Shown here: one piece after another, positions 26,071-46,655 of the stretch
How the letters are laid out: every line of letters starts with the position of its first letter
Numbering within the stretch: the first letter of the stretch is position 1
DNA from: Mycobacterium sp. Root265
GTDB taxonomy: Bacteria > Actinomycetota > Actinomycetes > Mycobacteriales > Mycobacteriaceae
Direction: 5' to 3'
DNA: 64,000 bases
NCBI RefSeq assembly: GCF_001428895.1
Contig: NZ_LMJA01000003.1
Location: forward strand, 125,560 to 189,559
Translations under genes and position numbers: made by a program
Notes under the pieces: model-generated
Seen by the model: only the letters and a program-made list of their open reading frames with translations
Told to the model about the DNA's origin: nothing
The model's database searches: none

Positions 26071-26146
26071 TCTCTGGCCGCACCACAGCTGAACAACGCT
26101 GCCCGTCTCGCCGGGCGACCGGAACTCACGCGCGAGGAGATCGGTG

Positions 26147-26173: not shown

Positions 26174-26175
26174 CG

Positions 26176-28243: not shown

Positions 28244-28568
28244 TCTGCTGGGGGTCGATGTGCGCGATGCCGCCGGGCGCCGATTGGGCACCGTCACCGA
28301 TGTGCGCCTGGCCGTCCCCGGCGCCATGGACCACCACCCCGGTCCCCCGTCGGTGTTCGGACTCGTCGTCAGCCCGCGGACCGGCTCGTCGTATCTGGGC
28401 TACGAACGTTCCGAAGTCCGCCGCCCGGCCGCACTGGCAGCACTACTGCGTTGGCGGCACCGGGGCACCTTCCTGACACTGTGGACCGACCTGCACACCG
28501 TGAGCGCCGACCGCGTCACGGTCCGCGACGGATACCGACGCTATTCGCCGATACTGCGCACGCGATAA
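28230..28568 (+). CDS. PRC-barrel-like protein 2
   Basis: 112 residues from ATG 28230, with GGAGG ten bases before and a 14-bp overlap with the previous gene. It begins QLSDLLGVDVRDAAGRRLGTVTDVRL, a clear PRC-barrel, and continues with a basic aromatic half (GYERSEVRRPAALAALLRWRHRG). It closes a four-gene operon of lipoprotein, transporter and two PRC-barrel proteins. Function unknown. Confidence 0.65.
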   Translation: MQLSDLLGVDVRDAAGRRLGTVTDVRLAVPGAMDHHPGPPSVFGLVVSPRTGSSYLGYERSEVRRPAALAALLRWRHRGTFLTLWTDLHTVSADRVTVRDGYRRYSPILRTR

Positions 28569-28583
28569 ACCCGTGCGGGCCGA

Positions 28584-29336: not shown

Positions 29337-29348
29337 CGTGACAGGCGC

Positions 29349-31454: not shown

Positions 31455-31518
31455 GGCAAACTCCTGCCGGCAAGTAGTGATGCCGCGCAGGCTGGCTGTA
31501 CGCGGGGGCGGATGCCGG

Positions 31519-31545
31519 GTACCCGTTGCAGCGGCATCTGAATCC
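31519..31545 (-). promoter_or_regulatory. SigF-type promoter candidate for katE
   Basis: In the minus direction GGATT (31545-31541), 16 bases and GGGTAC (31524-31519) match the SigF consensus with one mismatch in the -35, about 65 bp before the katE start. A weaker CGTTT-N16-GGGCAG (31562-31588) faces the opposite gene. Confidence 0.45.
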
Positions 31546-31616
31546 TCGATATCCGGGCCGACGTTTGGTGCAGCGAGTCCGAGGGCAGTCCGGATCCAAC
31601 GAACGAAGGGGGTCCC

Positions 31617-32312
31617 ATGAAGGCTTCTGATCTAGTCGCATTGCCGTTGCAGCTCGGCTCGGCGGTGCGCCGGCGCCGCATCTTTCACCCGCTGGGCGTG
31701 CTGGCGTCGGGGCACATCGATCGGGTCGCGCCACCCGATCGGGGCCTCCCGATCGAGTCGGGTGAGATCATCGGCCGGGTATCCAAAGCCGTCGGCATCC
31801 CGGGCGGTCTGCCCGATCTGATCGGTCTTGCCTGGCGCATGCCGACACACGCCCTCAACGCATCCCCGTGGGACGTATTGATGGTGTCCACCGGCGGTCC
31901 CGGGATGCTCGCCCGGTTCGGACTGCTGCCGACGACATCGTGGACGGGTACGACTCTGTCCACCTTGATGCCGTTGCGTTATCGGGATGACTGGTGGTGG
32001 CTGAAGGCGCACCTGCGCACCGACGTGGCAGGCGGGCTGTCGCTGGACACGCTGCGAGACGAGATCGAGGCCGGCGAACTCGTTTTCGACGTCCTGCAGG
32101 CGCACGGCACCGGCGTCTTCCAGCCCCTCGCGACGTTGACGTTGACGGCTCCGATTCCGACCGACGAGGACCACGACGTGTCCTTCGATCCGACCCGCAA
32201 CACCATCCCGGGTATTGCGCTCGGCCCCCGGTGGCTCACCGCGCTGCGCGAACGCGCCTACCTGCGCAGTAGGCACGGCCGGGACGCGCCGGATGAAGCG
32301 GCGCTCAGCTGA
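31617..32312 (+). CDS. Conserved mycobacterial protein, possible catalase-like fold
   Basis: 231 residues from ATG 31617, with AAGGGGG upstream. I recognise a conserved actinobacterial protein with FHPLGVLASGHIDRV, GGLPDLIGLAWRMP, DVLMVSTGGPG and FDPTRNTIPGIALG blocks, but not a tested function. Some blocks resemble the catalase-like fold (HPxGV and DPxxN-x-x-PG), and relatives have been called phosphodiesterase without support. It is divergent from katE and separated by 162 bp with opposing SigF-like elements, which may indicate joint stress control. Confidence 0.55.
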   Translation: MKASDLVALPLQLGSAVRRRRIFHPLGVLASGHIDRVAPPDRGLPIESGEIIGRVSKAVGIPGGLPDLIGLAWRMPTHALNASPWDVLMVSTGGPGMLARFGLLPTTSWTGTTLSTLMPLRYRDDWWWLKAHLRTDVAGGLSLDTLRDEIEAGELVFDVLQAHGTGVFQPLATLTLTAPIPTDEDHDVSFDPTRNTIPGIALGPRWLTALRERAYLRSRHGRDAPDEAALS

Positions 32313-33363
32313 CCGACCGGCCGAGGAAGCCGGTGAGCACGTCGGCCATGCCGTCGATGGCATCGCGTTTGATGACCTCGTAGCCGTGGGTGCTCAGCGT
32401 CGGAATGCACAGTAGACCGGCGCGGGCAGCCAAGCCGTTCTGCTTCGAATGTGAGGCGTCGGACTCGAAGGCGCCCAGCACCGCAGCCTGAGGTGCAAGG
32501 TCACGCTCGGCGGCGACGGCCATCAGCGCGTCGGCCACGGCCTTGTCGTAGACACATTCGGCGTCGCTGTACGCGACGATCGGCCCACCCGAGCATGTCG
32601 TGGCGTACTCGGCTTCGGCCGGCCCCACCTCCAGGGCGATCGTGAGATCGCCTGGCAGAGTGCGACTTGCATACGATCCGCCGATACCGCCGATTTCCTC
32701 GTTGGTGGTGAACACCGCGTACAGGTCACCGGCCGGCGTAATGCCTTGCTGTGTGAGCAGGCGCATCGCCCGCAGCAGGGCCGCCGCCGGCGCGCGGTCG
32801 TCCATGAAATAGCTCCCGAGATAGTCGCCGAATTCGATCAGCGTGCGCTTGCTCTGATGCACGCACACCCGGGTGCCGAGATGCACGCCGGCAGCCTTCA
32901 GTTCTTCGGCCCGAAGACCGGTGAAGACGTAGACGTGTTGCCAGTCCATCGCCTGGTCGCCCTGGTCGGGTTTGGTCTCCCAGATGCGCCGGCTCTCTTG
33001 CGTCGTGTGTTCCGAACCCAAAGTCAATACCCCGCACAGGGTTTCGTGATCGCCCAGTATCGCCACCGGACCCAGTCCGAAGTTGCCCGGATACATCGTC
33101 CCCAACTGGGTGACGTGCAGGGAACCATCGCGCTCAACACGTTTCACGATCATCGACAGTTCGTCCAGGTGCGCCATCACCCGTATCGCCGGGGCATCCC
33201 CGCCACGCAGGACTCCGACCAGGTTGCCCGCGGGATCCACCCACACCTCGTCGGCCAGCGGCTCGAGTTCGCGTCGACACACCTCGCGGACGTCGTCCTC
33301 GGCGCCGCAGGGTCCGTACGCGTTGAGTAGCTCCTGGAGCAGCCCGAGATCGGGGTCCGTCAT
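32305..33363 (-). CDS. M42-family aminopeptidase
   Basis: 352 residues from ATG 33363. Zinc ligands expected in the family are recognisable: His in RVMAHLDELSMIV, Asp in GDYLGSYFMDDRAPAAALL, a catalytic Glu pair in FTTNEEIGGIGG, and a His near SDASHSKQNGLAARAG with IPTLSTHGYEV at the end. M42 enzymes are large tetrahedral aminopeptidases (glutamyl aminopeptidase, tetrahedral aminopeptidase). The gene overlaps the next upstream gene by 4 bp, so both are probably cotranscribed. Confidence 0.85.
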   Translation of the reverse strand: MTDPDLGLLQELLNAYGPCGAEDDVREVCRRELEPLADEVWVDPAGNLVGVLRGGDAPAIRVMAHLDELSMIVKRVERDGSLHVTQLGTMYPGNFGLGPVAILGDHETLCGVLTLGSEHTTQESRRIWETKPDQGDQAMDWQHVYVFTGLRAEELKAAGVHLGTRVCVHQSKRTLIEFGDYLGSYFMDDRAPAAALLRAMRLLTQQGITPAGDLYAVFTTNEEIGGIGGSYASRTLPGDLTIALEVGPAEAEYATTCSGGPIVAYSDAECVYDKAVADALMAVAAERDLAPQAAVLGAFESDASHSKQNGLAARAGLLCIPTLSTHGYEVIKRDAIDGMADVLTGFLGRSVS

Positions 33364-33845
33364 TCCTCGACGTCACCAGGTGTGCGTCGTTCCGCCAGCG
33401 CCGCCAGCCGCCACGTGCATTCCCGGTTTCGGGGAAAGGCGGCGGCAAGGGAAAGCCGATCGGGCACCCACCCCATCGGCGCGCCGACCGGCACCTCGGC
33501 CATCTCGATGCGGCATCCGCCGCCGTCGATGTCGAACAGCCGCACAGTGACCCGTGCCTTGCCGAATGGGCGGCCCTTCGCGAGCAGCACCAGTTTCTCG
33601 GACGGCCGGCATTCCTCGACAATCGTCACATCATCGATCAGCAGCGGCCACACACCGATCGAATGCCTGATTGTGCTGCCGACCTGTGGCCAGTTCGGGT
33701 CGACGGCGCGCATCCGGCTGTTGCCGACCACCCACTGCGAATACGTCCAGCCATCCGCGATCACTTCCCATACCCGGTCACGACTGGCCGTGCTGTCCCG
33801 CTTGACGGTCAGTGAGCTGTTCACCTCGTCCGGCTGCTCAGCCAC
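33360..33845 (-). CDS. SRPBCC-family (polyketide cyclase-like) protein
   Basis: 161 residues from GTG 33845 after GAGGAG. The START-like helix-grip fold is suggested by VKRDSTASRDRVWEVIADGWTYSQWVVGNSRMRAVDPNWPQVGSTIRHSIG and alternating strands afterwards, with the family's long C-terminal helix. Such proteins bind hydrophobic ligands or catalyse cyclisation. Its TGA overlaps the ATG of the peptidase gene. The function of the pair is unknown. Confidence 0.75.
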   Translation of the reverse strand: MAEQPDEVNSSLTVKRDSTASRDRVWEVIADGWTYSQWVVGNSRMRAVDPNWPQVGSTIRHSIGVWPLLIDDVTIVEECRPSEKLVLLAKGRPFGKARVTVRLFDIDGGGCRIEMAEVPVGAPMGWVPDRLSLAAAFPRNRECTWRLAALAERRTPGDVEE

Positions 33846-34132
33846 GCGCCTCTCCTCATCCGATCAGCGGGCGTCCCCGGCGTGCGACTCCCGAGCCACA
33901 GGGGCCGCTGAGACGGCTTCCCGCTGCACACCGTCGCCAAACCTGCAGAGTCGGCTGACGTTCGTTCGATGGCTGCTCAACGATGCATAACGGCATCTGC
34001 ATGGGGTATTCAGCGGAGCACAAGCAACCCACGGGGGTCCAGTTGTTCGTCCCGGCCACCCCCACATCGAAACGACCGACCTAAACGGCAACGACACGCA
34101 CGGCCGCCTCACCGGCCGGAGAGGACACCACC

Positions 34133-34972
34133 ATGGGATTTCCCGAGCAGCAGCAAATTCCGCCCGGCATCCAATCAGAGATGACGCCCGTACCGGATTG
34201 CGGTGAGAACAGCTACCGCGGCTCCGGCAAGCTGACCGGAAAGCGCACGCTGATCACCGGCGGCGACAGCGGTATCGGGCGCGCGGCGGCCATCGCCTTC
34301 GCTCGTGAGGGTGCCGATGTCGCCATTGCCTATCTTAACGAGCACGACGACGCCAAGCAGGTGCAACAGCTGATCGAGGCCGAGGGCCGGCGTGCCCTTT
34401 CCCTGCCCGGGGACCTTTCCGAGGCCTCGCATTGTCGCTCCGTGATCGACACCGTCGTCAGGGAATGGGACGGACTCGACGTGCTGGTGATCAACGCGGC
34501 CTACCAGATGACACATGACAATTTGCAGGAAATCAGCGACGAGGAGTGGGACTACACCTTCAAGCTCAACGTCGGTGCTTTCTTCTACCTGGCCAAAGCC
34601 GCCGTCCCGCACATGCCGGCCGGCTCCTCGATCATTGCGAGTTCCTCGGTCAACTCTGATTCGCCCAACCCGACCCTGGCGCCGTATGCAGCCACCAAAT
34701 CGGCGATCGCGAACTTCAGCGCCAGCCTCGCGCAGCTGCTCGGCCCCGACGGCATCCGGGTCAACAGTGTTGCGCCGGGGCCGATCTGGACACCGCTGAT
34801 CCCGTCAACCATGCCTCCGGAGAAGGTCGCCACGTTCGGCGAGAACGTTCCGCTCGGCCGGGCCGGTCAGCCCGTGGAACTGGCGCCGGTGTACGTCATG
34901 CTGGCCTCCGATGACGGCAGCTACGTTTCCGGTGCGCGCATCGCGGTGACCGGCGGTCGCCCCATCTTGTGA
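34133..34972 (+). CDS. Short-chain dehydrogenase/reductase (YghA-like)
   Basis: 279 residues from ATG 34133. The N-terminal extension (FPEQQQIPPGIQSEMTP) precedes the Rossmann motif TGGDSGIGRA, and the catalytic region has SSSVNSDSPNPTLAPYAATKSAI (Tyr-x3-Lys) and GIRVNSVAPGPIWTPLIP. The extension and sequence match the YghA/DhaA stress-induced NADPH-dependent aldehyde reductases. It is placed between stress-related genes and its expression could be stress controlled, which the sequence does not prove. The gap of 287 bp before it shows nothing recognisable. Confidence 0.85.
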   Translation: MGFPEQQQIPPGIQSEMTPVPDCGENSYRGSGKLTGKRTLITGGDSGIGRAAAIAFAREGADVAIAYLNEHDDAKQVQQLIEAEGRRALSLPGDLSEASHCRSVIDTVVREWDGLDVLVINAAYQMTHDNLQEISDEEWDYTFKLNVGAFFYLAKAAVPHMPAGSSIIASSSVNSDSPNPTLAPYAATKSAIANFSASLAQLLGPDGIRVNSVAPGPIWTPLIPSTMPPEKVATFGENVPLGRAGQPVELAPVYVMLASDDGSYVSGARIAVTGGRPIL

Positions 34973-34981
34973 GTCCGGCGA

Positions 34982-35692
34982 TCAGGGGTTGTCGACGATG
35001 CGCTCGGCGATGAGGCGCACAGGTGTGTTGGTGTCCTGCGAGAGTTTCGTCATCAAACTGAACGCCCGTACCGCGTCGATCTTGAAGCGCTCCATCAGGA
35101 TGCCCTTGGCCTGGCCGAGCACGTCACGGCTGTGCAGTGCGGATTCGAACTGCAGCTGGCGGTTGGCTGCAATGAGGGCGGCCGCGGCGTGGGTGGCCAG
35201 CATCGCGCCGACAGCCTGATCGGCCAGGCTGAACGGACCGACGTTGCGGCTGAACAGATTCAGCGCGCCCCGGCCCGTGATTGCGCCGCGCGTCCTGTCC
35301 GGATAGGTGTAGAGGTGAAACGACATCATGCTGCGGATGCCGTGTGCCATTGCCGCCGAACTGAATTCGGGCCAGCGCGGTTCGCAGCTGAAATCGGCGC
35401 TGTGGACCAGCGGCTCGCTGGTAACCGCCTCCAGGCAGGGGCCCTGCCCCAGCGTGACCTGGACCGTGTCGAGTTCGACCGTGAGAGGTGAGGTCGGCGC
35501 CAACGAACGGTGGGTATCCCCGTCGATGAGCAGAATATCCGCGAAGTCGACTTCGGCGATCAACCGCACGGCCTGCTCCGAGACGGTGTTCAGAATGGGT
35601 TCCAGCTCGGTGCGGCCGGCGAAGTTGGTAGCCAGCTCCTGCATCGCGAACTCGATGTCATCGAGTGAACGAGAGTCCTCAGATGCGCTCAC
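34982..35692 (-). CDS. GAF-ANTAR regulator 1
   Basis: 236 residues from GTG 35692 with GGGAGG before it. The GAF domain (about residues 30-165, VSEQAVRLIAEVDFADILL) is followed by an ANTAR domain (SALHSRDVLGQAKGILMERFKIDAVRAFSLMTKLSQDTN), the RNA-binding antiterminator module. The GAF strand contains a RGAITGRGALNLF segment that recurs in regulator 3. Mycobacterial GAF-ANTAR proteins act as transcription antiterminators on nascent RNA. The ligand is unknown. Confidence 0.8.
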   Translation of the reverse strand: MSASEDSRSLDDIEFAMQELATNFAGRTELEPILNTVSEQAVRLIAEVDFADILLIDGDTHRSLAPTSPLTVELDTVQVTLGQGPCLEAVTSEPLVHSADFSCEPRWPEFSSAAMAHGIRSMMSFHLYTYPDRTRGAITGRGALNLFSRNVGPFSLADQAVGAMLATHAAAALIAANRQLQFESALHSRDVLGQAKGILMERFKIDAVRAFSLMTKLSQDTNTPVRLIAERIVDNP

Positions 35693-35763
35693 TGCAGCCT
35701 CCCGTATTTCATTTTCCTGCCCACCCCGAGTAGGCCAACAATAGCCGTCGAACGATTCTTCGT

Positions 35764-36594
35764 TCAGACTCCGCGCGGTGTGATGGCCGTCGGCGGTAAG
35801 AGCTGCGGTGGTGTGGTCAACAGTGCGTGTGCGGCGAGGTCTGCGGACGGGTCACGGTCGTAGGCGGCGACAATGGCTGCGGCGTGCGAGCTCACCGTGA
35901 CGCCGTGGGCGCGGGCCACCCGGTTGAGCGTCAGCCGCGCCTGTTCGATGGTGCTGCCGAAGGTTTCGGCGACGATGCCGGTCGCCGAGGCGATCGTGGC
36001 GCTGCCCTGCAGCACCGATGCAATCAGGTCTTCGGAGGTACTGCGGCGAACGTCGGTGCGTGGAGCGATGGACAAGGCGAGGGCCGTCAGATTGGCCAGT
36101 GTCTGGCCCAGGTCGTTGGGCCGGGCAGTACCCCAGGGTTCGTCGGTGTGCACCACCAACGACCCCATGCGCGCACCCATCGCGGTCACCGGGAAGGCCC
36201 GCATCCCGCGCATGCCGGCGCGTAAAGCCTCGCGCCGGTAATCCGGCCACCGCGTCTCGTGGGATTCAACCAGGTCGTCGATCATCGTGACCGCACCGTC
36301 GCGAGCACTCTCGTAGGCGGGACCGGTGGCCACGAACCCGAAGTCGGTCTCAACGGGTTCACGCAGCGCCTCGGCGACCACCCTGACTTCCGCGTCGCCG
36401 TCGACGTCACCGTCATCCAGCAGCCCCACCACCGCCGACACCGCGGTGTAGCCCCGGCAGACGTCGTGGGCGATGGTGCTCAGTACCGTGGGTAGATCGA
36501 ACTCTGTGTTCAAAGTCGCGGTCAGTTCGGCGATCGCCAGCCGATTGCGCGCTGCAGTCATCTCTTTCGGCCCTTCCTGCTCCGTGGCGGTCAC
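35764..36594 (-). CDS. GAF-ANTAR regulator 2 (degenerate ANTAR)
   Basis: 276 residues from GTG 36594, one base after the upstream stop; ATG 36612 (overlapping) and ATG 36561 are alternatives. A GAF domain covers residues about 30-160 (LNTEFDLPTVLSTIAHDVCRGYTAVSAVVGLL). The C-terminal part has an ANTAR-like helical pair (TSEDLIASVLQGSATIASATGIVAETFGSTIEQARLTLNRVARAHGVTVS), but residues normally conserved in the RNA-binding helices are changed, so RNA binding is less certain. Confidence 0.7.
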   Translation of the reverse strand: MTATEQEGPKEMTAARNRLAIAELTATLNTEFDLPTVLSTIAHDVCRGYTAVSAVVGLLDDGDVDGDAEVRVVAEALREPVETDFGFVATGPAYESARDGAVTMIDDLVESHETRWPDYRREALRAGMRGMRAFPVTAMGARMGSLVVHTDEPWGTARPNDLGQTLANLTALALSIAPRTDVRRSTSEDLIASVLQGSATIASATGIVAETFGSTIEQARLTLNRVARAHGVTVSSHAAAIVAAYDRDPSADLAAHALLTTPPQLLPPTAITPRGV

Positions 36595-36595
36595 G

Positions 36596-37414
36596 TCATT
36601 GCCCCGACACATGACCCGCGTGGCCGTCGAGGTCGCGGAACGACAACTTCCGGCTCACCACATCGGCGGCGACTGCGACCACCGATCTTCTCTCGGCGTA
36701 CGCGTGTGCCCGCAACCGTGTCATCCCGTCGTGCGTGGATACCTTCAGCTGTACCGCCACCATGCCCGCCGCGATGTGCACCTGAGCGCGAGTGAACCGG
36801 TCGTCGACATGGGGTGATGCGCCGTCGTGCAACCCCACGGCCTCGATCGCCGCCTGGGCGTTGCCGCTGCGCCGCACCTGGCTCTGCCAGTTGGTTTCCA
36901 GCCGGTGACTGATGGCGGTGGTGCACGTCCGGGCGGACTCCAGCTCGCCCTGGGCCAGGGCACCGGGAGTCCGGCGGTACAGCTCGAGGATTCCCATCGG
37001 GCGTGACGCACCGGACACGGGAAATGCGAACACCGCGGCTACTCCGAGCGGCGCCACTTCGGCGGTGAACAACGGCCAGCGCTCCGCGAACTGAGGGTCT
37101 TCCACCGCGGGCCACAATTCGTCGCGATTCTGCGCGTAGGCATCCAGGCAAGGGCCCTCACCCACCGTGAACTGCAGTTCATCGATCTGCTGCGCCAGCG
37201 CATCGGTCGCGTGTACCAACTCACGCACGGTGCCCGACAAGACTGCCACCGCGGCACCGTCCACACCGGTCAGTCGCGCCGCGGTATCGCAGATGGCGCC
37301 CAGGCCGACAAACAACGACTCTCCGTCCAGGCGAAACAGATTCGACTCGCCACGGCCGGTTATCGCCCCCGCGCCGTCGGGATGCCCGGGATAATTCGAC
37401 GAGTCGCCTTCCAC
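36596..37414 (-). CDS. GAF-ANTAR regulator 3
   Basis: 272 residues from GTG 37414. After a 30-residue extension (GAITGRGESNLFRLDGES) comes the GAF domain (LGAICDTAARLTGVDGAAVAVLSGTVRELVHATDALAQQIDELQFTVGEGPCLDAY), and the C-terminal ANTAR domain begins at ASPHVDDRFTRAQVHIAAGMVAVQLKVSTHDGMTRLRAHAYAERRS. The TVGEGPCLDAY motif is typical of mycobacterial GAF-ANTAR proteins. It heads the three-regulator cluster 34982-37414, whose second and third members nearly abut. Confidence 0.8.
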   Translation of the reverse strand: MEGDSSNYPGHPDGAGAITGRGESNLFRLDGESLFVGLGAICDTAARLTGVDGAAVAVLSGTVRELVHATDALAQQIDELQFTVGEGPCLDAYAQNRDELWPAVEDPQFAERWPLFTAEVAPLGVAAVFAFPVSGASRPMGILELYRRTPGALAQGELESARTCTTAISHRLETNWQSQVRRSGNAQAAIEAVGLHDGASPHVDDRFTRAQVHIAAGMVAVQLKVSTHDGMTRLRAHAYAERRSVVAVAADVVSRKLSFRDLDGHAGHVSGQ

Positions 37415-37534
37415 CCGTTCACCTCTTCATTCCGGGTTCTGTGGTCACATCCACTATTGCCCCTTTTGCGGAGAATAACCATCTCGGCTCCGACGGTCGG
37501 GGCGACCCGTCATGACACCCTCAGCGGCGACCCG

Positions 37535-39295
37535 TCACAGGTCCACCACGACGGCCCCGGAGGGCTGTGCGCAACAGATCAAGATGTTCCCCTCGGCGGG
37601 CGGTTCCAGCGGCTCCGGGTCGTAGCGCACGGTTCCCGACAGCAGCGCCGTCTCGCAGTTGTGGCACACCCCGGTGCGGCAGGACCAGCGGGTCGGGACG
37701 TCGCACGTTTCGGCGAATTCGAGCAGGCTGGTGCTGGGCGGCCCCCAGGGTGCCGAGAGCCCGCTGCGCGCGAACTGCACCTCCGGTCCGGGTCCGGGCG
37801 ACCCCGCAGGCGGGTGCGGGGCGATCGACGTCGCGGCGATTCCAGGGGTGAGGGCGGCGGCCGCACCGAACAGTTCGGAGTGCACCCGGGCGGAATCCAG
37901 TCCATAGGACTCCAGGGCATTGGTGAGGTCGTTCATGAATGCCGCAGGCCCGCACAGATAGGCGTCCGCGTCGCGCGGCAGGGCCAGTCCCGCAATGGTT
38001 TCGCTGGTCAGCCGGCCCTGGTCGGTGAAATCGGCCCCCAGCCTGTCGGCTGACGTAGGTCGGCTGTAGAAGATGCGGAAATGGCTGCCGGGCAACTGTT
38101 TCAGCAGATCGCGGCTCTCCTGAGCGAATGGGTGCTCCTCTCCGCTGCGGGCCCCGTGCAGCCACCACAGCGGACGGCCCGAATGTGTCGCCGCAAGCCA
38201 GTGCAGCATCGAGAGCACCGGGGTGGCCCCCACCCCGGCGGAAATCAGAATCAGCGGTGCAGTTGCCTCGGTGAGGAAGAAGGTGCCGCGAGGCGCGGCG
38301 ACGTCCAGGAGATCACCGCGCTGGACGTGGCTGTGGATGTTTCCGCTGGCCAAGCCGTGTGGCTCTCGTTTGACGCTGATTCGGTAGTCGGCGGCCCCCG
38401 GCTGGTTGGACAGTGAGTAGTTGCGGATCAGCGGCGCACCGATGGGTTGGGGGTAGAGCCGCAGCGTGATCGATTGTCCGGGAAGCCATTTCGGTAGCGG
38501 TACGCCGTCCGGGTCGGCCAACGACACTGAGCGCACGTTCTGACTTTCGTCGTGCACAGCTTCGACCCGCAGTGGGCGGAATCCGGTCCACGCCGGTGGC
38601 GGGCTCGTCGCGCCGGTCAGCCCGACGTTCCCGGCGGGGCCCGTCGGCTTCTGGCTCTGTTCCGCCAGGCTCTGCAGGGACGCCTGCCAGCCGGGGCTGA
38701 GTGCCGGGATGCGAAGTGCGCGTTGCAATGTGTCGCGGGGGTGCCCGGGCAGGTAGAGCAGCGCGTCGATCTCGGCGACCGACACCTGCTCGGGTCCAGA
38801 GCTGAGCTTGACGATTTCCTGACCGGCTTCGATTTCGCCTTCGGTGATCACCCGGCAGTAGAACCCGGGCCGGCCGTGCGAGACCAACAGGGCCGCCATT
38901 CGGGGTTCGCCGATGCGCATGCCGGCCCGGTAGCAGGTAACCCGTGGCTGGGTCACCTCGAAGACCGCCTCCCCGATGCGGTATCGGTCACCGATGCACA
39001 CCTCGTCGTCGGGCAGCCCCTCGACGGTGAGGTTCTCCCCCAGCAGCCCGGGCGCCAGGTCGTCGCGGCCGAACACCTGCGCCCAGTGCCGGTAGGAATC
39101 GAGTTGATAGACCAGGACGGCCCGGTTCTCCCCGCCGTGGCCACCGAGGTCACCTTGACCGTCGCCGTCGATGTTGAGCCGCCGCGCCATCCGCGGCCCG
39201 GTCACCGGTTGTTTCCACGCGCCGGTGTAGACGGTGCGCTGATTCCACTCGACGTCCCTGGGCAGGCCGACGTTCACCGAGGTCAGTGTGGCCAC
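37535..39295 (-). CDS. MOSC / ferredoxin-reductase / 2Fe-2S fusion protein (YiiM-like)
   Basis: 586 residues from GTG 39295. Residues 1-215 form a MOSC plus 3-alpha domain like YiiM (molybdopterin-binding; GDLGGHGGENRAVLVYQLDSYRHW and VTQPRVTCYRAGMR with a Cys expected to contact the cofactor). Residues about 245-480 form a FAD/NAD ferredoxin reductase (IRNYSLSNQPG and ILISAGVGATPVLSMLHWL). The C-terminus is a plant-type 2Fe-2S ferredoxin with C539-x4-C544-x2-C547 and C575. The architecture predicts an N-hydroxyl reductase-like enzyme with its own electron chain. Confidence 0.85.
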   Translation of the reverse strand: MATLTSVNVGLPRDVEWNQRTVYTGAWKQPVTGPRMARRLNIDGDGQGDLGGHGGENRAVLVYQLDSYRHWAQVFGRDDLAPGLLGENLTVEGLPDDEVCIGDRYRIGEAVFEVTQPRVTCYRAGMRIGEPRMAALLVSHGRPGFYCRVITEGEIEAGQEIVKLSSGPEQVSVAEIDALLYLPGHPRDTLQRALRIPALSPGWQASLQSLAEQSQKPTGPAGNVGLTGATSPPPAWTGFRPLRVEAVHDESQNVRSVSLADPDGVPLPKWLPGQSITLRLYPQPIGAPLIRNYSLSNQPGAADYRISVKREPHGLASGNIHSHVQRGDLLDVAAPRGTFFLTEATAPLILISAGVGATPVLSMLHWLAATHSGRPLWWLHGARSGEEHPFAQESRDLLKQLPGSHFRIFYSRPTSADRLGADFTDQGRLTSETIAGLALPRDADAYLCGPAAFMNDLTNALESYGLDSARVHSELFGAAAALTPGIAATSIAPHPPAGSPGPGPEVQFARSGLSAPWGPPSTSLLEFAETCDVPTRWSCRTGVCHNCETALLSGTVRYDPEPLEPPAEGNILICCAQPSGAVVVDL

Positions 39296-39734
39296 AAGGG
39301 TGTCCCTTCCTCGCCGTGCAGCACGACGGTCTTTGGCGGGGTGGCTATCGGATTCTTACACGGTGCACTGACTGCGAGACCTCACAATGGCGTCTTGCCG
39401 CCGATCGTGTTGGCGCCACGCCAAAGTCGAACTGCCCAAAAACGTTGTTTTGTACATACTTCGGGCCTCCGGACTGACGTGTCGGCAACAGTTCCCCTCG
39501 CGTGAATGCAAACCCGTGACTGTTGCCAGGTGCGGGCAGGTCGCCGATACCGAAAAGCAAGTAGTGCACTACGCGGACCAGCGGACTGCCGAAGCGTAAC
39601 GATAACGACGGGTAACCGTTGCAGCACGAAGCGGTGACGGTTGCGGCACAGGCGAAAGGCATCTCTGTCGGTCACTGGGCCACTCGGGGAACGCCGCCCA
39701 ACGGCACACAGGGAGGAATGAAAGGGACAGAGCC
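39296..39734. other. 439-bp intergenic region
   Basis: Lies between the MOSC gene (leftward) and the 210-residue protein (rightward). There is an imperfect direct repeat in GTAACCGTTGCAGCAC / GTGACGGTTGCGGCAC around 39611-39650. Short frames on either strand have no ribosome site. Nothing else is recognised. Confidence 0.6.
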
Positions 39735-40367
39735 ATGAGTGCTCACATCATGCCGATCACAGGCTCGCAGCATTCGCCGGCCGACGCGTCGCGGCGACGG
39801 GGTTGGTTCGGCACCACGGACAACAGCGACGAAGACCGTGGCTGGTTGCACGACGCGAAGGTACTCGGAGGCGTCGTCGCCGCGGTTACTCCGCTGATTC
39901 TGTTGGTCGCACAAGTGACCGACTTGGGCGTCGACGACGTGCACGACCAGACTGCATCGGCCAAGGGGTCGATCGCCATGGTGGCTCCCAGTCTCGACGC
40001 GAGCAAGATCACCGTCGCCGGGACCGCAGACCCGGGTGTGAACACCGTCATGGTGCGAGTCGGTTCACTCGGCCCAGAGGGTCAGGGGTGGGCGAGAAAA
40101 ACCGAGGTCTTCGCCCAGGAGTGGAAGATGGTCATTCCGACTGCGCCGAAACTGGTCGGAGAATACGAGATCGAGGCGTGGTACTACACGCCATCTGGCG
40201 TCAAACTGGCCGCGAGTCAGCGTGAACTGGCCTCATCCTTCATGGAGCCGCCACCTCCGCCGAACCTGCCAGGCGACCTCGCCGACTGTGTTGCCCAATA
40301 CGGCGATGTCTGCTTCCAGGGGCAGCCCGGCTGGAGTGACCCGTCGGTCTATCGATCAGGTCAGTGA
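39735..40367 (+). CDS. Hypothetical single-pass membrane protein with C-terminal Cys pair
   Basis: 210 residues from ATG 39735, with AAAGGGA upstream. One hydrophobic segment (VLGGVVAAVTPLILLVAQV, residues about 43-61) separates a basic cytoplasmic N-terminus from an outer domain rich in beta-type strands (ASKITVAGTADPGVNTVMVRVGSLG and GEYEIEAWYYTPSG). The last 40 residues are Pro-rich and end with a Cys pair (ADCVAQYGDVCFQG). No family is recognised. It is immediately followed by the 51-bp repeat that marks the islet boundary and whose hairpin would terminate its transcript. Confidence 0.6.
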   Translation: MSAHIMPITGSQHSPADASRRRGWFGTTDNSDEDRGWLHDAKVLGGVVAAVTPLILLVAQVTDLGVDDVHDQTASAKGSIAMVAPSLDASKITVAGTADPGVNTVMVRVGSLGPEGQGWARKTEVFAQEWKMVIPTAPKLVGEYEIEAWYYTPSGVKLAASQRELASSFMEPPPPPNLPGDLADCVAQYGDVCFQGQPGWSDPSVYRSGQ

Positions 40368-40404
40368 GGGGCGCGCTCTCTCACAGGAACGCGCCACAGA
40401 ACCG

Positions 40405-40455
40405 AAAAACCCGCTCCGACACTGGTCGGAGCGGGTTTTCCTTGGTCGGGCCGAC
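40405..40455 (+). repeat. Left direct repeat (att-like, tRNA-Pro 3' end plus terminator)
   Basis: 51 bases, with 49 of them identical to 46541-46591 in the same orientation (mismatches at 40440 and 40452). Read leftward it contains GTCGGCCCGACCA, matching the last bases of tRNA-Pro, followed by the terminator hairpin. No tRNA body is attached, as expected for an attachment-site scar. Confidence 0.7.
40406..40439. terminator. Bidirectional intrinsic terminator
   Basis: 15-bp stem (40406-40420 with 40425-40439), ACTG loop, A-run on the left and T-run on the right. It ends the transcript of the 210-residue membrane protein and belongs to the left islet repeat. Confidence 0.8.
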
Positions 40456-40624
40456 TCATTCCGATCATCGAATTGCCACACCGCCAGACGCGAGAGTTCG
40501 AGGGCCGATCCGATGAATCAGCCCACGGCCGCACCAGCGCTACCTCACTCCGCCTAACGCCGGGGCCGCTGGACTCCGATTCGGACTCAGAGCAGCACGA
40601 CCACGCACAGCTCGCGTTGCACCA

Positions 40625-40645
40625 TTAGTGCGATATAGTGCACTA
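40625..40645 (+). promoter_or_regulatory. Operator overlapping the -10 box of the XRE-cupin gene
   Basis: TAGTGCACTA (40636-40645) is a perfect palindrome, and a half-site TTAGTGC lies at 40625-40631. TATAGT (40634-40639) fits a -10 hexamer, so transcription should start next to ATG 40647, giving a leaderless mRNA whose promoter is blocked when the palindrome is bound. Autoregulation is inferred. Confidence 0.55.
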
Positions 40646-40646
40646 C

Positions 40647-41258
40647 ATGGATGAGGTGGCGGCGAAACTCGCCGCGGCGATCGGCGCGCGCGTCAAGCAG
40701 GAGCGACGCGCACGGGACTGGACACTCGATCGGTTGGCGGAAGTGGCCGGCGTGAGCCGTCGCATGGTGGTCAGCGTCGAGCAGGGCACCGTCAATCCCA
40801 GTGTGGGAACGCTGCTTCGACTCAGCGATGCGTTGGGGATCGGTCTGCCCGCGCTGGTCGAACCTCCTGGGCGCCGCACCGTCACCGTCACCCGCAGCGG
40901 CCAGGGCGCAGAACTGTGGACCGGCGCCGAGGGCGGATGCGGAGTCCTGGTCGCCGGCACCACCGCTCCCGATGTCGTCGAACTGTGGGACTGGAGCCTG
41001 GGTCCGGGCGACATCCATGCAACCGAGGCCCATGCCGCCGGCACCACAGAACTCCTGCACGTTCTGCACGGCGAGATCACCGTCGAGGTCGCCGGTGAGT
41101 CGATCGCACTTCAGACCGGCGACGCGTTGACGTTTCCCGGCGACCTCCCGCACACCTATGCCAATACCCATGGCGTAGCGGCACGGTTCTCTCTGGCGGT
41201 GTTCGAGCCCGGCGTCGGTACCTCTACCCCACCGCGGCCCGAAGGGACCCATGACTGA
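40647..41258 (+). CDS. XRE-family regulator with C-terminal cupin domain
   Basis: 203 residues from ATG 40647 (a GTG at 40638 lies in the operator and is less likely). The first 60 residues are a helix-turn-helix (LDRLAEVAGVSRRMVVSVEQGTVNPSVGTLLRLSDALG). The cupin beta-barrel begins near residue 95 and contains HVLHGEITVEVAGE and LTFPGDLPHTYAN with metal-type His residues. Such proteins are ligand-sensing repressors, often of small-molecule metabolism genes. It is probably autoregulatory through the palindrome at its own start, and 88 bp separate it from the flavoprotein gene. Confidence 0.85.
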   Translation: MDEVAAKLAAAIGARVKQERRARDWTLDRLAEVAGVSRRMVVSVEQGTVNPSVGTLLRLSDALGIGLPALVEPPGRRTVTVTRSGQGAELWTGAEGGCGVLVAGTTAPDVVELWDWSLGPGDIHATEAHAAGTTELLHVLHGEITVEVAGESIALQTGDALTFPGDLPHTYANTHGVAARFSLAVFEPGVGTSTPPRPEGTHD

Positions 41259-41346
41259 CCTCGACGAGGTTCTGGGCACCACACATGGACGACGCGATGG
41301 CACACAGCGGCCAGCCGAATGTTGACTGCAACGCAAGGAGATTGAG

Positions 41347-42012
41347 ATGCTCATCCACCCCTGGGACGCTGCGCGGGACGCCGCCGAATGGCAGCGGTGG
41401 CTGGCGACCACGGACCGGTTCGGGACCCTGGCGGTTAACAACATCGATCCCGGTCAGGCCCCACTGCTCATCCACACTCACTTCACCCTCACCGACAGCG
41501 AGTTGGTCTTCCACCTGGCGCGCCCCAACCCGATCTGGCCACACTTGGAAGCGGCCGGCGAGGTGCGCCTGGCGGTGATCGGCGACTACGCCTACATCCC
41601 GTCCTATTGGCGGGCCAAAGCCGGCGGCGCTGACGAAGACGGTGTTCCGACGAGTTACTACTCTGCCGTCCAATTCGTCGGCCGGCCTTCAGTTGTCGAT
41701 GATCCGGAGGGCAAGGTGCAGATCCTCAGGACCCAGTTCGGCGATCTGCAGCCCGAAGGCGGCCACGCGGCCGTCGCTGTCGGAGAGGATCCCTACGGCC
41801 GGTTACTGCCCGGCATCCGTGGGGTCCGCATGTCCATCGTGAGGGTCGAGGCCAAGTTCAAGTACGACGACCACAATCCGGTCGAGCACCGGGAGCGCGT
41901 CATCGGCCGGCTCCGCGAGCGTGACACAGGACTAGACACCGGCGCGGCGGCTCACCAACGCCTCCGCCTCGACACCATCGGCGATTGGAAAGCCCGCCGG
42001 AAGCCGACATAA
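41347..42012 (+). CDS. PaiB-like FMN-binding protein
   Basis: 221 residues from ATG 41347. The split-barrel FMN fold is suggested by RFGTLAVNNIDPGQAPLLIHTHFTLT, then LVFHLARPNPIWPHLEAAGEVRLAVIGDYAYIPSYWRAK, and VPTSYYSAVQFVGRPSVVD. The last segment and the C-terminal KYDDHNPVEHRERVIGRLRER match PaiB/FMN-binding negative regulators, which bind FMN and act in protease or polyamine control. It probably forms an operon with the XRE-cupin gene. Confidence 0.75.
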   Translation: MLIHPWDAARDAAEWQRWLATTDRFGTLAVNNIDPGQAPLLIHTHFTLTDSELVFHLARPNPIWPHLEAAGEVRLAVIGDYAYIPSYWRAKAGGADEDGVPTSYYSAVQFVGRPSVVDDPEGKVQILRTQFGDLQPEGGHAAVAVGEDPYGRLLPGIRGVRMSIVRVEAKFKYDDHNPVEHRERVIGRLRERDTGLDTGAAAHQRLRLDTIGDWKARRKPT

Positions 42013-42797
42013 GAGTGAGGTCGCCGACTGCGCTTCGCGCGTGGACGCTCGCGCTGGATGATGGAACCGCAAAACTGATCGATCGATCACAATGGCAATG
42101 CGTGGAATGCCTGCGAAGCTCGTGCCGAACTGTTCTTCCGACCGCTGACAACAGCGGCACTGTAGGTCTGATGACAGCGGCGTCCGGCCAAACTCGGTCA
42201 ACACGGGCGACGGCCAGATCATGCCCGACGGGCGTACGTCGCGGTGGGCAGGCATAAACAGCGGGCCTGAAACATCTGCCGGCTCTCGCCGACACCTCGA
42301 TAGAGAGTCCCTCCTGGGTGGCATTCGGCGAGGGCTTCCCAGTTGATGACCGATCAGCGATATTCGGGGTTGAGTCATTCTGGCGCAGCGTGATTGGCGA
42401 CAGGCTGCAAGCCCACTGCTGGCTGCCCCGACGATCGCCAAGGCGGGTCCGCGCTTTGTCCGTGCAGGATGTCGTGATCACCTGACCGACCAGATCAGTC
42501 GGCCTCTCGAGTCATTCACGCACCCGACCGTGGCGGGACGAAGTGAACACGCCCCTCGATGCACATTTCAGCAACGTATGGGCTAGCGCCGACACCGCCG
42601 GCGCAAGCTATCGCCGATCCAGGTGCGGGGTACGCACCGTTGACAGCCGTGGTGATCCATGTCACTCTTCCTGATCAGTCGACCAAATTCTGACACACCA
42701 TTCGGGCGTCCGGCCGCACCATCAGAACTCAAGACGTGCACCGAAGACGATCAACTGAACACGGATTAACCCCTCAAACCCATATGGAGCTGAACCC
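42013..42797. other. 785-bp region without recognisable gene inside the islet
   Basis: Lower in GC than its surroundings and with several short overlapping frames on both strands, none with a ribosome site or recognisable motif. TTCTGA and TCAGAA (near 42689 and 42722) form a loose inverted repeat before the next gene. It could be the remains of decayed cargo. Confidence 0.5.
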
Positions 42798-45650
42798 ATG
42801 GCGAGCGCCGATCACCCCACCAACCCCCTGTTCTCTGCGCCTTCGTCGAACACCCCGGTGTGGGCCGTCGCGCCCTCTCGAACAGCTGCCCAACGCGCGG
42901 TGAAGTTCGGCGGATACGGCGGTATGGCCGTGGCGGCGTGGCTTGTCGCCGCGGTGGCCACCGGCTACGGCGTGGCCGCGGCCGACACGACCGGTGGTGC
43001 GTCGGAATCGTCCTCGACGTCGAGTTCGGCGGACTCAGGGTCGACTACGAGCTCGGCCGCTTCATCGGACAAGGATTCGTCGGCGAACGACGACGCCGCC
43101 AGCGGGTCGGGCGCAACATCCGCGACCGGGCAGGCCGACACGATCGGTGCCGGTGACAGGGATGAGGCCGATGACACCGAATCGGATTTGCCGGTGGACT
43201 CGACATCGCCCGGCGATGAAGCTGGCGACGGCACCGATGACGCTGGGACTGAGACTGATTCGAGTGAGCCCGCCGGCGATGAGGAGTCATCGGAGGTGCC
43301 GGTGTATAGCCCGCCGGTGCTGACGGTGCCGGACGCCGGGCAGCCGACGAAGGCTCCTGGCAGGAACGGCTCGCACTCGGATTCCGATGACACCCTTACA
43401 GCACCCGCCGGACCGCCCGAGACCGAGTCGGCTCCGCAGGCGACCGAGGCCGGAATCGATGATGCCGTCGTCAGCACTACACCATCTGCTGTGAAGGCGG
43501 TCGCAACCATCGCTGAGACCAGCGTCAACGCCGCCAAGACGAGCCGAAGCGGCGCATCCATCGCGATGACTGCCGATCCGGCCGCGCCCGTGACCGAAGC
43601 AGCCACCATGCACGGTGTCCTCGCCGCCGTACTCGCTCCCTTTGTGGCGCCGTCGCCCGCCGCACCGTCGACCCCGTCGCCGGCTCTGTGGACGCTGCTG
43701 GCCTGGGTCCGACGCAGCTTCTTCAACCAGGCGCCGACCATCGCCTACAACCCCACCACCACGGTGCAGACCGGGCAGACCCTGAGCGGCAACCTCGGTG
43801 CCACCGATGCGGAAGGCGACGCCCTGACCTACAAGGTCACCAAGGGACCGCAGTACGGCACCCTGACGATCGACCAGGCGACGGGCAACTTCACCTACAC
43901 CCCCGACGACATCAATTACGATGCGGCGCAGATTGATTCGTTCACGGTGTCGGTCACCGACGGCAAGTTCAACCTGCTCAGCCTGTTCCGTCCGCACGGC
44001 GACCGGGACACCATCGGGGTCAATGTTCTGAACCCCACCGTCGAGCGAGCAATTCTGAACATGCCCGATGGCGTGACCAAGCCGGTCAATCCGCGCTACT
44101 CGGAGGACGGGAAATCCGTCTACTTCTCCGGCACACCGGCCGCCGGCGGCCGTGGCGAGATCTATCAGATCAACATCGACGGAACGGACGCGAAATGCCT
44201 CACCTGCGGCCTCGTCGCCCCAACGGTTGCCGGGTCGGACCCGGCGGTGCCGATCAACATCCTCAAACCCGTTCCGTTCTATGACGGAACCGGTCGAGTC
44301 GTGGTGCTGCTCAACAATCCCGATCCCCGCTACGCGATCTTTGAGCCGGCCGGCTACAACGGCATCGGCTCCCCGGCGCGGATCGTGAACGTCATCACCC
44401 CCGATGGCGGCGGGGCCACCCTGCCCGGCCTGCCGCCCGGCGGCATCTTGAACCGGGAACGGGAGATGCGGCCGTCACCTGATGGCACGCACGTACTGTT
44501 CACCCGCATCGTCTTCGGCCAAACCGGCAACTTCCAGGCCCTTCCGATCGTGGGCGCGTTGACGGCGAATGGTGACCACTACGAGGTCACCAATGCGCGG
44601 GTGGTGTGGCCCACCGGCGAGTCCAAACAATGGACCCCCGACGGCAAGGGCGTGATCATTCAGGGCGGAGCGATTGATGCCGGCAACATCGACGACATCA
44701 TGGTCGACCTGTCGGGCCAAACCGGGGACATTCTCTACCCGGGCAGCCCCTTCCGCGGTACTCGGGTGACCGGCAACCTCGATTACGACGAGGACATCGA
44801 CATGTCGCCCAACAAGCAGTGGATCACCGTCGGCAGCCTGCGCGGATTCGACGCGCTTACTGCGATGACCCGCTTCGTGCGGCAGAACTTCTTGCCGGTC
44901 TACCTGGCTGCGATCTATGACCAGTACGCGGACGGGCAGGTGCGCAACGTCTCGAACCAGAACTGGGCGGTCGCCATCGAAGATGACCTCAAGGGCGCGA
45001 ACGGAATTCCGCTCTTCGTTCAGGATGATCCCAACACTCCCGACGTCGACGAAGGTGACGGCTGGATCTCCCGAAGCATGCCCAGCTGGAATGCCGATGG
45101 CACCGCGGTCACGTTCTGGGAGTCCGGTAACGGCGACGAGCACGGAATTGCGCCGACAGAATCACGACTGGTCATCGCGAATTTGAAGTACACGACCAGC
45201 GTGGGATCGGTCGGGGACACAACGACGGTATTCAACACTTCGGCGTTCCCGGACCTAACCACCTACGTCGCCAAGACGACACCGCTGCCGCCGACCGGCA
45301 GCTACAACGGCGTCGGCGGGGGCACCGCGGCGGTCAGCGAGGTCATCGACCCCACGACGCACCAAACCACCCGCACGGTGCAGTACACCAACTACAAAAA
45401 TGAGGACGGATTGATCCTCAACGGCACCGAATCGGCGATCTACGGGCCGTCCCAGCTCAGCGTGACGTATCTCGCCGACGTCGATGTCACCGACGCCACC
45501 GGAGCCAGCCGAGGCACGCTGGATGCCAACGCCGTGGTCACCCTGCTGCCCACCCAAGCGGTGACGGGCTACATCACCTCGACCCTCGACGGTGACACCC
45601 AGACCATCCCGGATCCGGCCAAGGTGGAGGACGCGAAGACCGGCGCCTGA
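42798..45650 (+). CDS. Large surface protein: signal, Ser/Thr spacer, Ig-like domain, PD40-type propeller
   Basis: 950 residues from ATG 42798. A hydrophobic export segment (GGMAVAAWLVAAVATGYGVAAA, residues about 40-62) is followed by a 200-residue spacer of Ser, Thr, Asp and Glu. A cadherin/Ig-like domain comes next (about 300-420, NPTTTVQTGQTLSGNLGATDAEGDALTYKVTKG). A six-bladed-type propeller then begins with VNPRYSEDGKSVYFSGTPAAGGRGEIYQI and contains PD40 strands and Cys. The C-terminal 130 residues look like strands with no motif I can name. A cell-surface binding or enzymatic role is inferred from architecture. Confidence 0.75.
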   Translation: MASADHPTNPLFSAPSSNTPVWAVAPSRTAAQRAVKFGGYGGMAVAAWLVAAVATGYGVAAADTTGGASESSSTSSSADSGSTTSSAASSDKDSSANDDAASGSGATSATGQADTIGAGDRDEADDTESDLPVDSTSPGDEAGDGTDDAGTETDSSEPAGDEESSEVPVYSPPVLTVPDAGQPTKAPGRNGSHSDSDDTLTAPAGPPETESAPQATEAGIDDAVVSTTPSAVKAVATIAETSVNAAKTSRSGASIAMTADPAAPVTEAATMHGVLAAVLAPFVAPSPAAPSTPSPALWTLLAWVRRSFFNQAPTIAYNPTTTVQTGQTLSGNLGATDAEGDALTYKVTKGPQYGTLTIDQATGNFTYTPDDINYDAAQIDSFTVSVTDGKFNLLSLFRPHGDRDTIGVNVLNPTVERAILNMPDGVTKPVNPRYSEDGKSVYFSGTPAAGGRGEIYQINIDGTDAKCLTCGLVAPTVAGSDPAVPINILKPVPFYDGTGRVVVLLNNPDPRYAIFEPAGYNGIGSPARIVNVITPDGGGATLPGLPPGGILNREREMRPSPDGTHVLFTRIVFGQTGNFQALPIVGALTANGDHYEVTNARVVWPTGESKQWTPDGKGVIIQGGAIDAGNIDDIMVDLSGQTGDILYPGSPFRGTRVTGNLDYDEDIDMSPNKQWITVGSLRGFDALTAMTRFVRQNFLPVYLAAIYDQYADGQVRNVSNQNWAVAIEDDLKGANGIPLFVQDDPNTPDVDEGDGWISRSMPSWNADGTAVTFWESGNGDEHGIAPTESRLVIANLKYTTSVGSVGDTTTVFNTSAFPDLTTYVAKTTPLPPTGSYNGVGGGTAAVSEVIDPTTHQTTRTVQYTNYKNEDGLILNGTESAIYGPSQLSVTYLADVDVTDATGASRGTLDANAVVTLLPTQAVTGYITSTLDGDTQTIPDPAKVEDAKTGA

Positions 45651-45676
45651 TCTGTAGGCAGCCTTCTCCAAGAGTG

Positions 45677-45715
45677 GTGCAGCGGCGGTCGCGGTGTTCG
45701 TGGCCGCCGCTGCAC
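45677..45715 (+). terminator. Hairpin terminator candidate
   Basis: A perfect 12-bp stem (45677-45688 with 45704-45715) and a 15-base loop 27 bases past the stop of the large surface protein gene. There is no U-tract, so termination would be of the tractless mycobacterial type. Confidence 0.45.
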
Positions 45716-45832
45716 GGGGTGCTTCGAGGAGGACGGCTTCCACAGAACCGGCGGAGCAACGGTTTACCCGAAATATGGCAGCGAAGAACGTCCGGATCGG
45801 GATGCGGTGACGACCAGAGAACAGGAGCAGCG

Positions 45833-46357
45833 ATGACCGTGGCCAAAAGTACCGTCCACCCTGTTTCACATTCCGTCAGATATCAGCTTGACGTCGTCGC
45901 CAGCAGTGTCGCCCACGCGGCTCAATCTGCAGGCGGCTGGTTGTTCGACCGAGCGATGGCTGGATGGGACGTGGCTGTTCTCGTAGAAGAGTTGAACGAA
46001 AGCCCGATGCCGCTGGAGATCTTGGGTGTAGAGGTCGTCGACTTCGAGGCCATGACGCGAAGAATGAACGGAAGCCGCCCGTCTACTGTCGCCATCGCGG
46101 TCGCCGCCGATCTCTGCGGCGGAGCCGGCCGAATCCAGTACGACGCGCTGCTCACACCGGAAAGCGGACACACCGAGGTGACGCTGTGGGGCACTCATCC
46201 TCGTGAAGCCGACTGCAGTTGCTTCGTGGAATATCAACCCAGTGTTGCCGCACGTGCTTTCAAGGCCCAAGCTTTGGCCGCGGCAGGACTGCCCGCCGAC
46301 CCGATCTCCGCCGTCGAGGTGTACCGCAACCGACCAGGCCGCTGCGCCGTGCCCTGA
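45833..46357 (+). CDS. Protein of unknown function in the islet
   Basis: 174 residues from ATG 45833 (CAGGAG upstream). It has no signal peptide. The first 60 residues are helical (YQLDVVASSVAHAAQSAGGWLFDRAMAGWDVAVLVEEL) and the middle has strand-rich segments ending in a Cys pair (READCSCFVEY). I recognise no family. Its stop codon is immediately followed, in the same frame, by the recombinase remnant, so the two may once have been joined or overlapping. Confidence 0.55.
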   Translation: MTVAKSTVHPVSHSVRYQLDVVASSVAHAAQSAGGWLFDRAMAGWDVAVLVEELNESPMPLEILGVEVVDFEAMTRRMNGSRPSTVAIAVAADLCGGAGRIQYDALLTPESGHTEVTLWGTHPREADCSCFVEYQPSVAARAFKAQALAAAGLPADPISAVEVYRNRPGRCAVP

Positions 46358-46360
46358 ACT

Positions 46361-46540
46361 GATGCGCGGCACCTCAGCACCAGCGTGAGCCTGATGCTCG
46401 CCGGCGGTGGTCCGGTACACGTCGTCGCGGCGCGGCATGGCCACGATCCCGCGGTGTCGTTGTCGATCTATACGTGCGCCCAGCGCGATGATCTACGCGC
46501 CGCCGATCCCGCGCTCTTCGGCTCGCAGGTCCCGCACGGA
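46361..46540 (+). pseudogene. Tyrosine recombinase (integrase) C-terminal remnant
   Basis: In the frame starting at 46361 the translation reads through DARHLSTSVSLML (the region of the conserved second Arg/His box), GGGPVHVVAARHGHD (the third box and GH) and LSIYTCAQRDDLRAA (the nucleophile Tyr region), then ALFG. This is the catalytic C-terminus of phage-type integrases. The N-terminal domain, first Arg box and a start are missing, so the gene is decayed. It ends at the right attachment repeat beside tRNA-Pro, exactly where an integrase gene of a tRNA-targeting island is expected. Confidence 0.65.
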
Positions 46541-46576
46541 AAAAACCCGCTCCGACACTGGTCGGAGCGGGTTTTT
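46541..46576 (-). terminator. Terminator of tRNA-Pro
   Basis: 16-bp stem (46541-46556 with 46561-46576), ACTG loop. In the minus direction the right arm is transcribed first, and the run of T follows the stem as a U-tract. It sits two bases beyond the tRNA CCA end. Confidence 0.8.
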
Positions 46577-46591
46577 CTTGGTCGGGCTGAC
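46541..46591 (+). repeat. Right direct repeat (tRNA-Pro 3' end plus terminator)
   Basis: 51 bases matching 40405-40455 with two differences. It covers the terminator of tRNA-Pro and its last 13 bases, so it is the functional attachment copy that restores the tRNA. Confidence 0.75.
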
Positions 46592-46655
46592 AGGATTTGA
46601 ACCTGCGACCACTTGACCCCCAGTCAAGTACGCTACCAAGCTGCGCCACAGCCCG
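46579..46655 (-). tRNA. tRNA-Pro (anticodon GGG)
   Basis: 77 nt in the minus direction with encoded CCA (46579-46581). The acceptor stem pairs CGGGCTG with CAGCCCG, the anticodon stem CTTGA/TCAAG encloses the loop CTGGGGG (anticodon GGG at 46619-46621), and the T arm has GGTTCAAATCC. It is the integration target of the islet on its left. Confidence 0.92.

Follow-up and report, generated by a model that had tools for sequence, protein, structure and literature searches.

A probable remnant of an integrative element at the tRNA-Pro gene of Mycobacterium sp. Root265

In the genome of Mycobacterium sp. Root265 (6.67 Mb), the 3′ end of a tRNA-Pro gene and its terminator hairpin are repeated about 6 kb away, with a small group of genes, here called the islet, between the two copies. 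The question raised by this locus is how the islet came to lie beside the tRNA gene. It is located in a stretch of 64,000 nucleotides (contig NZ_LMJA01000003.1, positions 125,560 to 189,559; hereafter the window), to which all coordinates refer. The islet is likely a decayed remnant of an integrative element inserted at tRNA-Pro, since the integrase clade of its remnant sits intact at the same tRNA and the islet is missing in the relatives examined. A first-pass annotation had described a decayed integrative islet at this tRNA, which is kept here as the best reading, while its cargo is probably not one unit.

Direct repeat and integrase remnant at the tRNA-Pro gene

The complete tRNA-Pro (GGG) gene was identified with ARAGORN on the minus strand at 46579 to 46655, with an Rfam tRNA match at 46582 to 46655. 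A 51-bp direct repeat, 6.1 kb apart and with mismatches at 40440 and 40452, had been noticed beforehand, and alignment bore this out in every detail. The distal copy (40405 to 40455) and the proximal copy (46541 to 46591), neither of which is assigned a strand, are identical at 49 of 51 nt (96%), and their starts are 6136 nt apart. Each copy consists of a hairpin and the last 13 nt of tRNA-Pro-GGG. In the distal copy these parts are found at 40406 to 40439 and 40443 to 40455, and in the proximal copy they form the tRNA-Pro terminator hairpin and the tRNA 3′ end. The hairpin is perfect in each copy with 15–16 bp, and its folding energies lie between −28.1 and −31.5 kcal/mol across both strands of both copies. 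With up to three mismatches, the 51-nt block occurs at two sites only in the window and at none in 100 shuffles, and a genome-wide search matched the hairpin part of the query solely to the two repeat sites. No convincing additional hairpin or tRNA copies were found within the window. A direct repeat of the tRNA 3′ end is present at both borders of the islet, with a tRNA part of just 13 nt, and the distal copy is read as the old tRNA end, displaced and with its tRNA part truncated.

The earlier suggestion of a tyrosine recombinase remnant beside the tRNA was likewise confirmed. DNA and protein alignment placed the remnant at 46376 to 46522 on the plus strand. It comprises the last 49 of 465 codons with the stop codon lost, and aligns with residues 417–465 of the 465-residue integrase of genome G032 at 86% identity; the first 416 codons are absent in the window. 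The full-length integrase carries a Phage_integrase domain, and the remnant alone, scanned as 52 residues, gave no match in family scans. It starts 18 bp past the stop codon of the preceding gene (45833 to 46357). From the end of the integrase gene to the tRNA there are 58 bp in the window versus 114–116 bp in eight relatives (the genes of G032 and G109 stop about 115 bp short of the tRNA), so that 56–58 bp are missing. With this shortening, the stop codon and the GGGACACT arm repeats are gone from the window; the latter are present between integrase gene and hairpin at 9 of 12 clade loci. The window remnant and the intact elements have the same gene order and orientation, with the integrase C-terminus facing tRNA-Pro. 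The C-terminus is 80–86% identical over 49–54 residues to eight intact integrases at tRNA-Pro, and on this short stretch of 49 codons the remnant is assigned to the tRNA-Pro integrase clade.

By the proposed mechanism, the integrase would have recombined the attachment site of the element (attP), comprising the tRNA-Pro 3′ part and the terminator hairpin, with the tRNA gene of the chromosome. This gene would have been rebuilt with the 3′ end and terminator of the element, seen as the right copy, and the old tRNA end and terminator would have been moved 6 kb off, seen as the left copy. Given the loss of the integrase body, of the 56–58 bp and of the left tRNA part, excision should no longer be possible. 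With integrase, arm sites and distal attachment site truncated, the element is probably immobile and would best be described, as to function, as a locked-in remnant.

The integrase clade and its terminator hairpin

Full-length homologues of the integrase at 61% identity or more were found in 22 of 397 genomes of the genus. All 12 homologues with at least 69% identity lie within 2.7 kb of a tRNA-Pro; in one of these genomes, G377, the contig ends inside the tRNA, so that just the hairpin and the last tRNA bases are visible. Ten homologues have 61–66% identity. The position check covered eight of them, leaving out G380 and G253, and none of the eight was seen near tRNA-Pro: in five (G317, G112, G123, G372, G002) tRNA-Pro is on the same contig at a distance of hundreds of kb, and in three (G214, G325, G019) the integrase is on a different contig. 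The carriers of the clade include M. pyrenivorans, M. sediminis, M. hodleri, M. neoaurum and other strains, and a homologue with 66% identity is found in a Nocardia sp. No close relatives of the clade integrase were found in IMG/VR, and phage-record integrases match the clade at 34–38%, among the 12 listed of 23 records.

On the element side, the next copy of the tRNA-Pro 3′ end is found 6.8 kb away in G133, 14.6 kb in G220, 35.6 kb in G109, 40.7 kb in G355 and 95 kb in G145, each span possibly being a single element. The G220 span (locus L167) contains the integrase, a D5-type primase, a terminase large subunit and a bSEFIR match, and the G133 span (L214) the integrase, a terminase and a PDC-S59 match. 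Judged by their predicted genes, these two small elements look satellite-like and carry candidate anti-phage genes. The islet had earlier been said to match no nameable element, whereas its closest counterparts are the elements of this clade. Broken or truncated integrase copies beside tRNA-Pro are also found in G014, G202 and G370, so integrase decay at this tRNA is not rare. In G370 (L165, 12778–16731), a complete clade integrase is followed after 2.4 kb by a second integrase C-terminus adjoining the tRNA, which covers about residues 404–465; 160 of 180 bp are common to both.

A particular hairpin accompanies the integrase. A hairpin of the form CCCGCYC...RGAGCGGG, which is present beside the tRNA in the window, was found at 12 of 12 clade loci (integrase within 3 kb) versus 4 of 36 loci without the integrase, in a count of 48 loci related by descent that excludes the window. 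A first, stricter pattern had matched 11 of 13 integrase loci, counting the window, and 3 of 36 others, and was widened after the misses had been inspected. The count leaves out 14 stretches without a whole tRNA-Pro, mostly second stretches, among them G377 with integrase and hairpin at a contig end. Among the 32 loci chosen regardless of an integrase, the hairpin is present at both of the loci that have one and at 1 of the 30 that do not. The four hairpin loci lacking the integrase are those of G034, G413, G222 and G211, all of which share the left flank of the window.

From this association it follows that the element probably replaces the tRNA terminator. In the simplest reading, attP probably carries a terminator, which takes the place of that of the tRNA upon insertion and stays at the locus after loss of the element. 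The tRNA of G220 has the clade hairpin and the distant copy there a different one; in G355, as in the window, the clade hairpin is found in the distant copy as well. That both window copies have it would be expected if an earlier element had preceded the present one.

If elements routinely replace the tRNA terminator, its type could flag former integrations where the integrase is gone, perhaps including the four relatives named above. An integrative element can fade such that the integrase end and the tRNA-adjacent terminator outlast the rest, and tRNA-Pro loci thereby record past elements. A broader proposal holds that terminator hairpins are exchange points for gene islets, that successive tRNA-Pro elements leave a series of terminators, and that a surface-gene block is transferred among unrelated loci and inserts between hairpins, at tRNA-Pro in the window and at rdgB in a close relative; we regard this as improbable. 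In the text of PMC10865867, the string "terminat" does not occur.

The locus in relatives and the cargo of the islet

Stretches were taken from 32 of 36 relatives of the same genus. When the locus was compared among relatives, as the first-pass annotation had suggested, all 48 tRNA-Pro loci examined outside the window lacked the islet. The relatives which share parts of the left flank carry other DNA there, amounting to 0.4 kb in G413, 3.2 kb in G211, 10.4 kb in G034 and 12.7 kb in G222. G413 comes nearest to an empty site: its MOSC-domain gene (window 37535 to 39295) ends 418 bp from the hairpin, and of these 418 bp just about 30 beside the gene and about 10 beside the hairpin align with the window. 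The exact empty junction that had been predicted was found neither there nor in the other genomes examined, and the empty site is inferred. In G222, most of the left-flank genes from 22 to 39 kb are followed by the 12.7 kb of other genes; in G211, g29–g35 precede the 3.2 kb, which include a decarboxylase-like gene, and in G034, g22–g23 precede the 10.4 kb. On the right flank, G211 is the closest of the genomes compared with 92% identity over 3.3 kb, and the G222 stretch covers little of this side. The region from 26176 to 39295 is mostly common to the window and G222 and is absent from G034 between the g23 homologue and the tRNA, which makes the left flank itself variable. Just outside the distal repeat, an accessory gene of unknown function encoding 210 amino acids (39735 to 40367, plus strand; codon score 0.04) has homologues in 19 of 396 other genomes with a best identity of 41%, and may belong to an earlier layer of this variable region.

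All cargo genes are located on the plus strand. The first one (40647 to 41258) encodes a PuuR-like XRE-cupin regulator with Pfam matches to HTH_3 and Cupin_2 and an NCBIfam PuuR match below the curated cut-off. It is followed by a gene for an FMN-binding split-barrel protein of the PaiB family (41347 to 42012; Pfam FMN_bind_2, 8.5e-23), whose relatives in the PDB include PaiB, FMN-binding negative transcriptional regulators and piperazate synthase. Homologues of these two genes, at 73–77% DNA identity (about 73–76% for the regulator), are found near each other in at least 13 genomes of the genus, without the islet.

The surface-gene block (42066 to 45711) comprises an upstream region of about 730 bp, the surface gene itself (42798 to 45650) and a downstream hairpin (45677 to 45715). 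The encoded protein of 950 amino acids is probably exported and has weak cadherin-like and TolB-propeller matches. A silent region of 785 bp had been pointed out as foreign to the core genes. It is indeed a non-coding gap (42013 to 42797), but from 42066 on it represents the surface-gene upstream region, conserved in a relative. The block is 84% identical in DNA over 3656 bp to one in G211 located between genes which we read as rdgB and an MFS gene. In all seven genomes searched in which that locus was present, our own included, it lacks the block, and three of these (G414, G114, G186) have a surface-gene homologue of 79–85% identity on another contig. The block probably arrived as a separate module.

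The last cargo gene (45833 to 46357) is a divergent copy of a conserved mycobacterial gene of unknown function, with matches in 316 of 397 genomes at E ≤ 1e-8 (our own among them) and a best listed non-self identity of 54%. The longer open reading frame from 45674 gave no Pfam match, and PDB matches were at chance level.

Among the listed DNA matches in the 397 genomes, none spans more than one cargo block. As the surface block occurs alone elsewhere and the regulator–PaiB pair without the islet, the cargo is probably not one unit; it is probably of mycobacterial accessory type and composite. Matches to the cargo elsewhere in the host genome are short at the DNA level (69–79%), and surface-gene paralogues were not searched at the protein level. 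Pfam and PHROGs scans of the islet genes gave no capsid, terminase or primase, family scans of its proteins no phage structural, replication or integration family, and PADLOC only HTH-type matches to the regulator. A plasmid or phage origin was considered and dropped, the best plasmid match inside the islet being 288 bp long (megablast). Effects of the islet on the host, if any, would be due to its genes, which seem to encode a regulator together with a flavoprotein, an exported protein and a conserved unknown protein.

The cargo had also been described as unlike its surroundings. Codon scores of the islet genes (0.18–0.23, last gene −0.16) are lower than those of 13 genes taken as core (0.29–0.58), which supports this for the core, but the left-flank genes g30–g37 score about as low (0.04–0.27). 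The guanine-cytosine (GC) content is 64.8% in the islet, 66.2% in the left flank (26033 to 40404) and 67.7% in the right flank, and 21 of 232 islet-sized sliding windows have a GC content equal to or below that of the islet.

Alternative origins and the tRNA-Pro hotspot

Several observations weigh against a single integrative element. The left copy holds 13 nt of the tRNA versus 40–44 nt in the distant copies of integrase-clade genomes, which makes the left end an imperfect attachment site. Both hairpin copies are like those of G034 and G222, which belong to the same clade as the window, so that neither copy can be singled out as element-derived. The remnant is 57–63% identical to the G317 and G123 integrases, which are not at tRNA-Pro, and just 57–73% to those of G220 and G121, which are; with such overlapping scores, its C-terminus alone cannot settle the target. 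Codon bias does not set the islet apart from the left flank, the exact empty junction is in no genome examined, and a search of the window with 11 proteins from the two small clade elements, terminase and primase among them, gave no hits at E ≤ 0.01.

These points leave room for piecemeal accretion, in which the element was lost except for its tRNA end, the 6 kb were filled by independent insertions, and the repeats mark an old event instead of the borders of one element. The lone surface block at rdgB in G211 and the homologues elsewhere in G414, G114 and G186 speak for such a history, as do the occurrence of the regulator–PaiB pair in many genomes, the absence of any remaining satellite gene and the four relatives with the hairpin but no integrase within 3 kb. 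The repeats, on the other hand, are still 96% identical, and one hairpin–tRNA copy per edge fits a single integration. Accretion has in our estimate slightly less than an even chance, and as it overlaps with the integrative origin, the two estimates are not exclusive. An arrangement formed with no integrase, by recombination or slippage at the hairpins that duplicated hairpin and 13 nt and trapped or imported chromosomal genes, would account for the perfect 15–16 bp palindromes at both ends and the short tRNA part of the left copy, and has a parallel in the G211 surface block lying between two related hairpins; the integrase remnant, separated by 18 bp from the right copy and placed in the order seen in intact elements, makes this unlikely. 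Slightly less probable still, the left copy could be the old terminator severed by an insertion sequence that has since decayed, with a separate integration having renewed the tRNA end. In G026, each of two transposase genes is indeed framed by copies of one 16-bp piece of the tRNA end, and the hairpin copy of that genome extends about two bases past the end of the left copy of the window, yet the G026 insertion sequences match the window in 17 nt of the tRNA end only. A search for an insertion-sequence origin of the islet edge found none.

tRNA-Pro is a recombination hotspot, as shown by further 3′ copies, phage matches and transposase insertions. At least 9 of 36 genomes of the genus have additional tRNA-Pro 3′ copies, 1–32 kb off on the same contig. 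Phages of the Giles type, which we take to integrate at tRNA-Pro, carry a 46-bp match to it. In G026 (L055), two transposase genes, presumably IS481-like and with ends TGT...ACA, are each located between copies of the same 16 bp, which suggests a preferred target.

tRNA-associated genomic islands have direct repeats of the tRNA 3′ end, a decayed integrase gene at the tRNA end and accessory cargo. As the remnant of a tRNA-targeted integrative element, the islet is an additional example of this known kind, differing in that its repeat includes the terminator and that the distal tRNA part is very short. The clade elements share with it the tRNA, the orientation, the integrase C-terminus and the kind of hairpin, whereas they have a whole integrase and mostly the arm repeats, of which the window retains 49 integrase codons only, next to cargo of chromosomal type. 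The two small ones have terminase, primase (one of them) and candidate defence genes, none of which was found in the islet; given these candidates, the tRNA-Pro locus is a place to seek anti-phage systems. The Giles group are phages, and their match covers the same 3′ part of the tRNA without the hairpin. Giles-based integration vectors are mentioned in PMC9262239. Candidate mycobacterial phage-inducible chromosomal islands, as described in PMC10654092, resemble the clade elements in having a tyrosine integrase at a tRNA gene, and are defined there by integration machinery plus a capsid gene. The terminase or primase genes of G220 and G133 add to this likeness; the islet differs in lacking satellite genes, capsid genes not having been searched for specifically.

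In four genomes (G018, G024, G004, G013; L065, L066, L067, L069), the tRNA-Pro match is reversed relative to the neighbouring core genes and somewhat divergent in sequence. The surface block of G211 (L155) lies between two related hairpins of about 60 bp (about 9261–9324 and 12964–13024), which are members of a repeat family of these genomes (CGAAAC.CGCGTACCC...); the genome of the window (G000), G222, G034 and G413 have one such hairpin stretch at the rdgB locus and no block. Elsewhere in the window, the segment from 10001 to 11000 within an open reading frame of 579 codons (9839 to 11578) has a GC content reaching 79% and a GC skew of −0.195.

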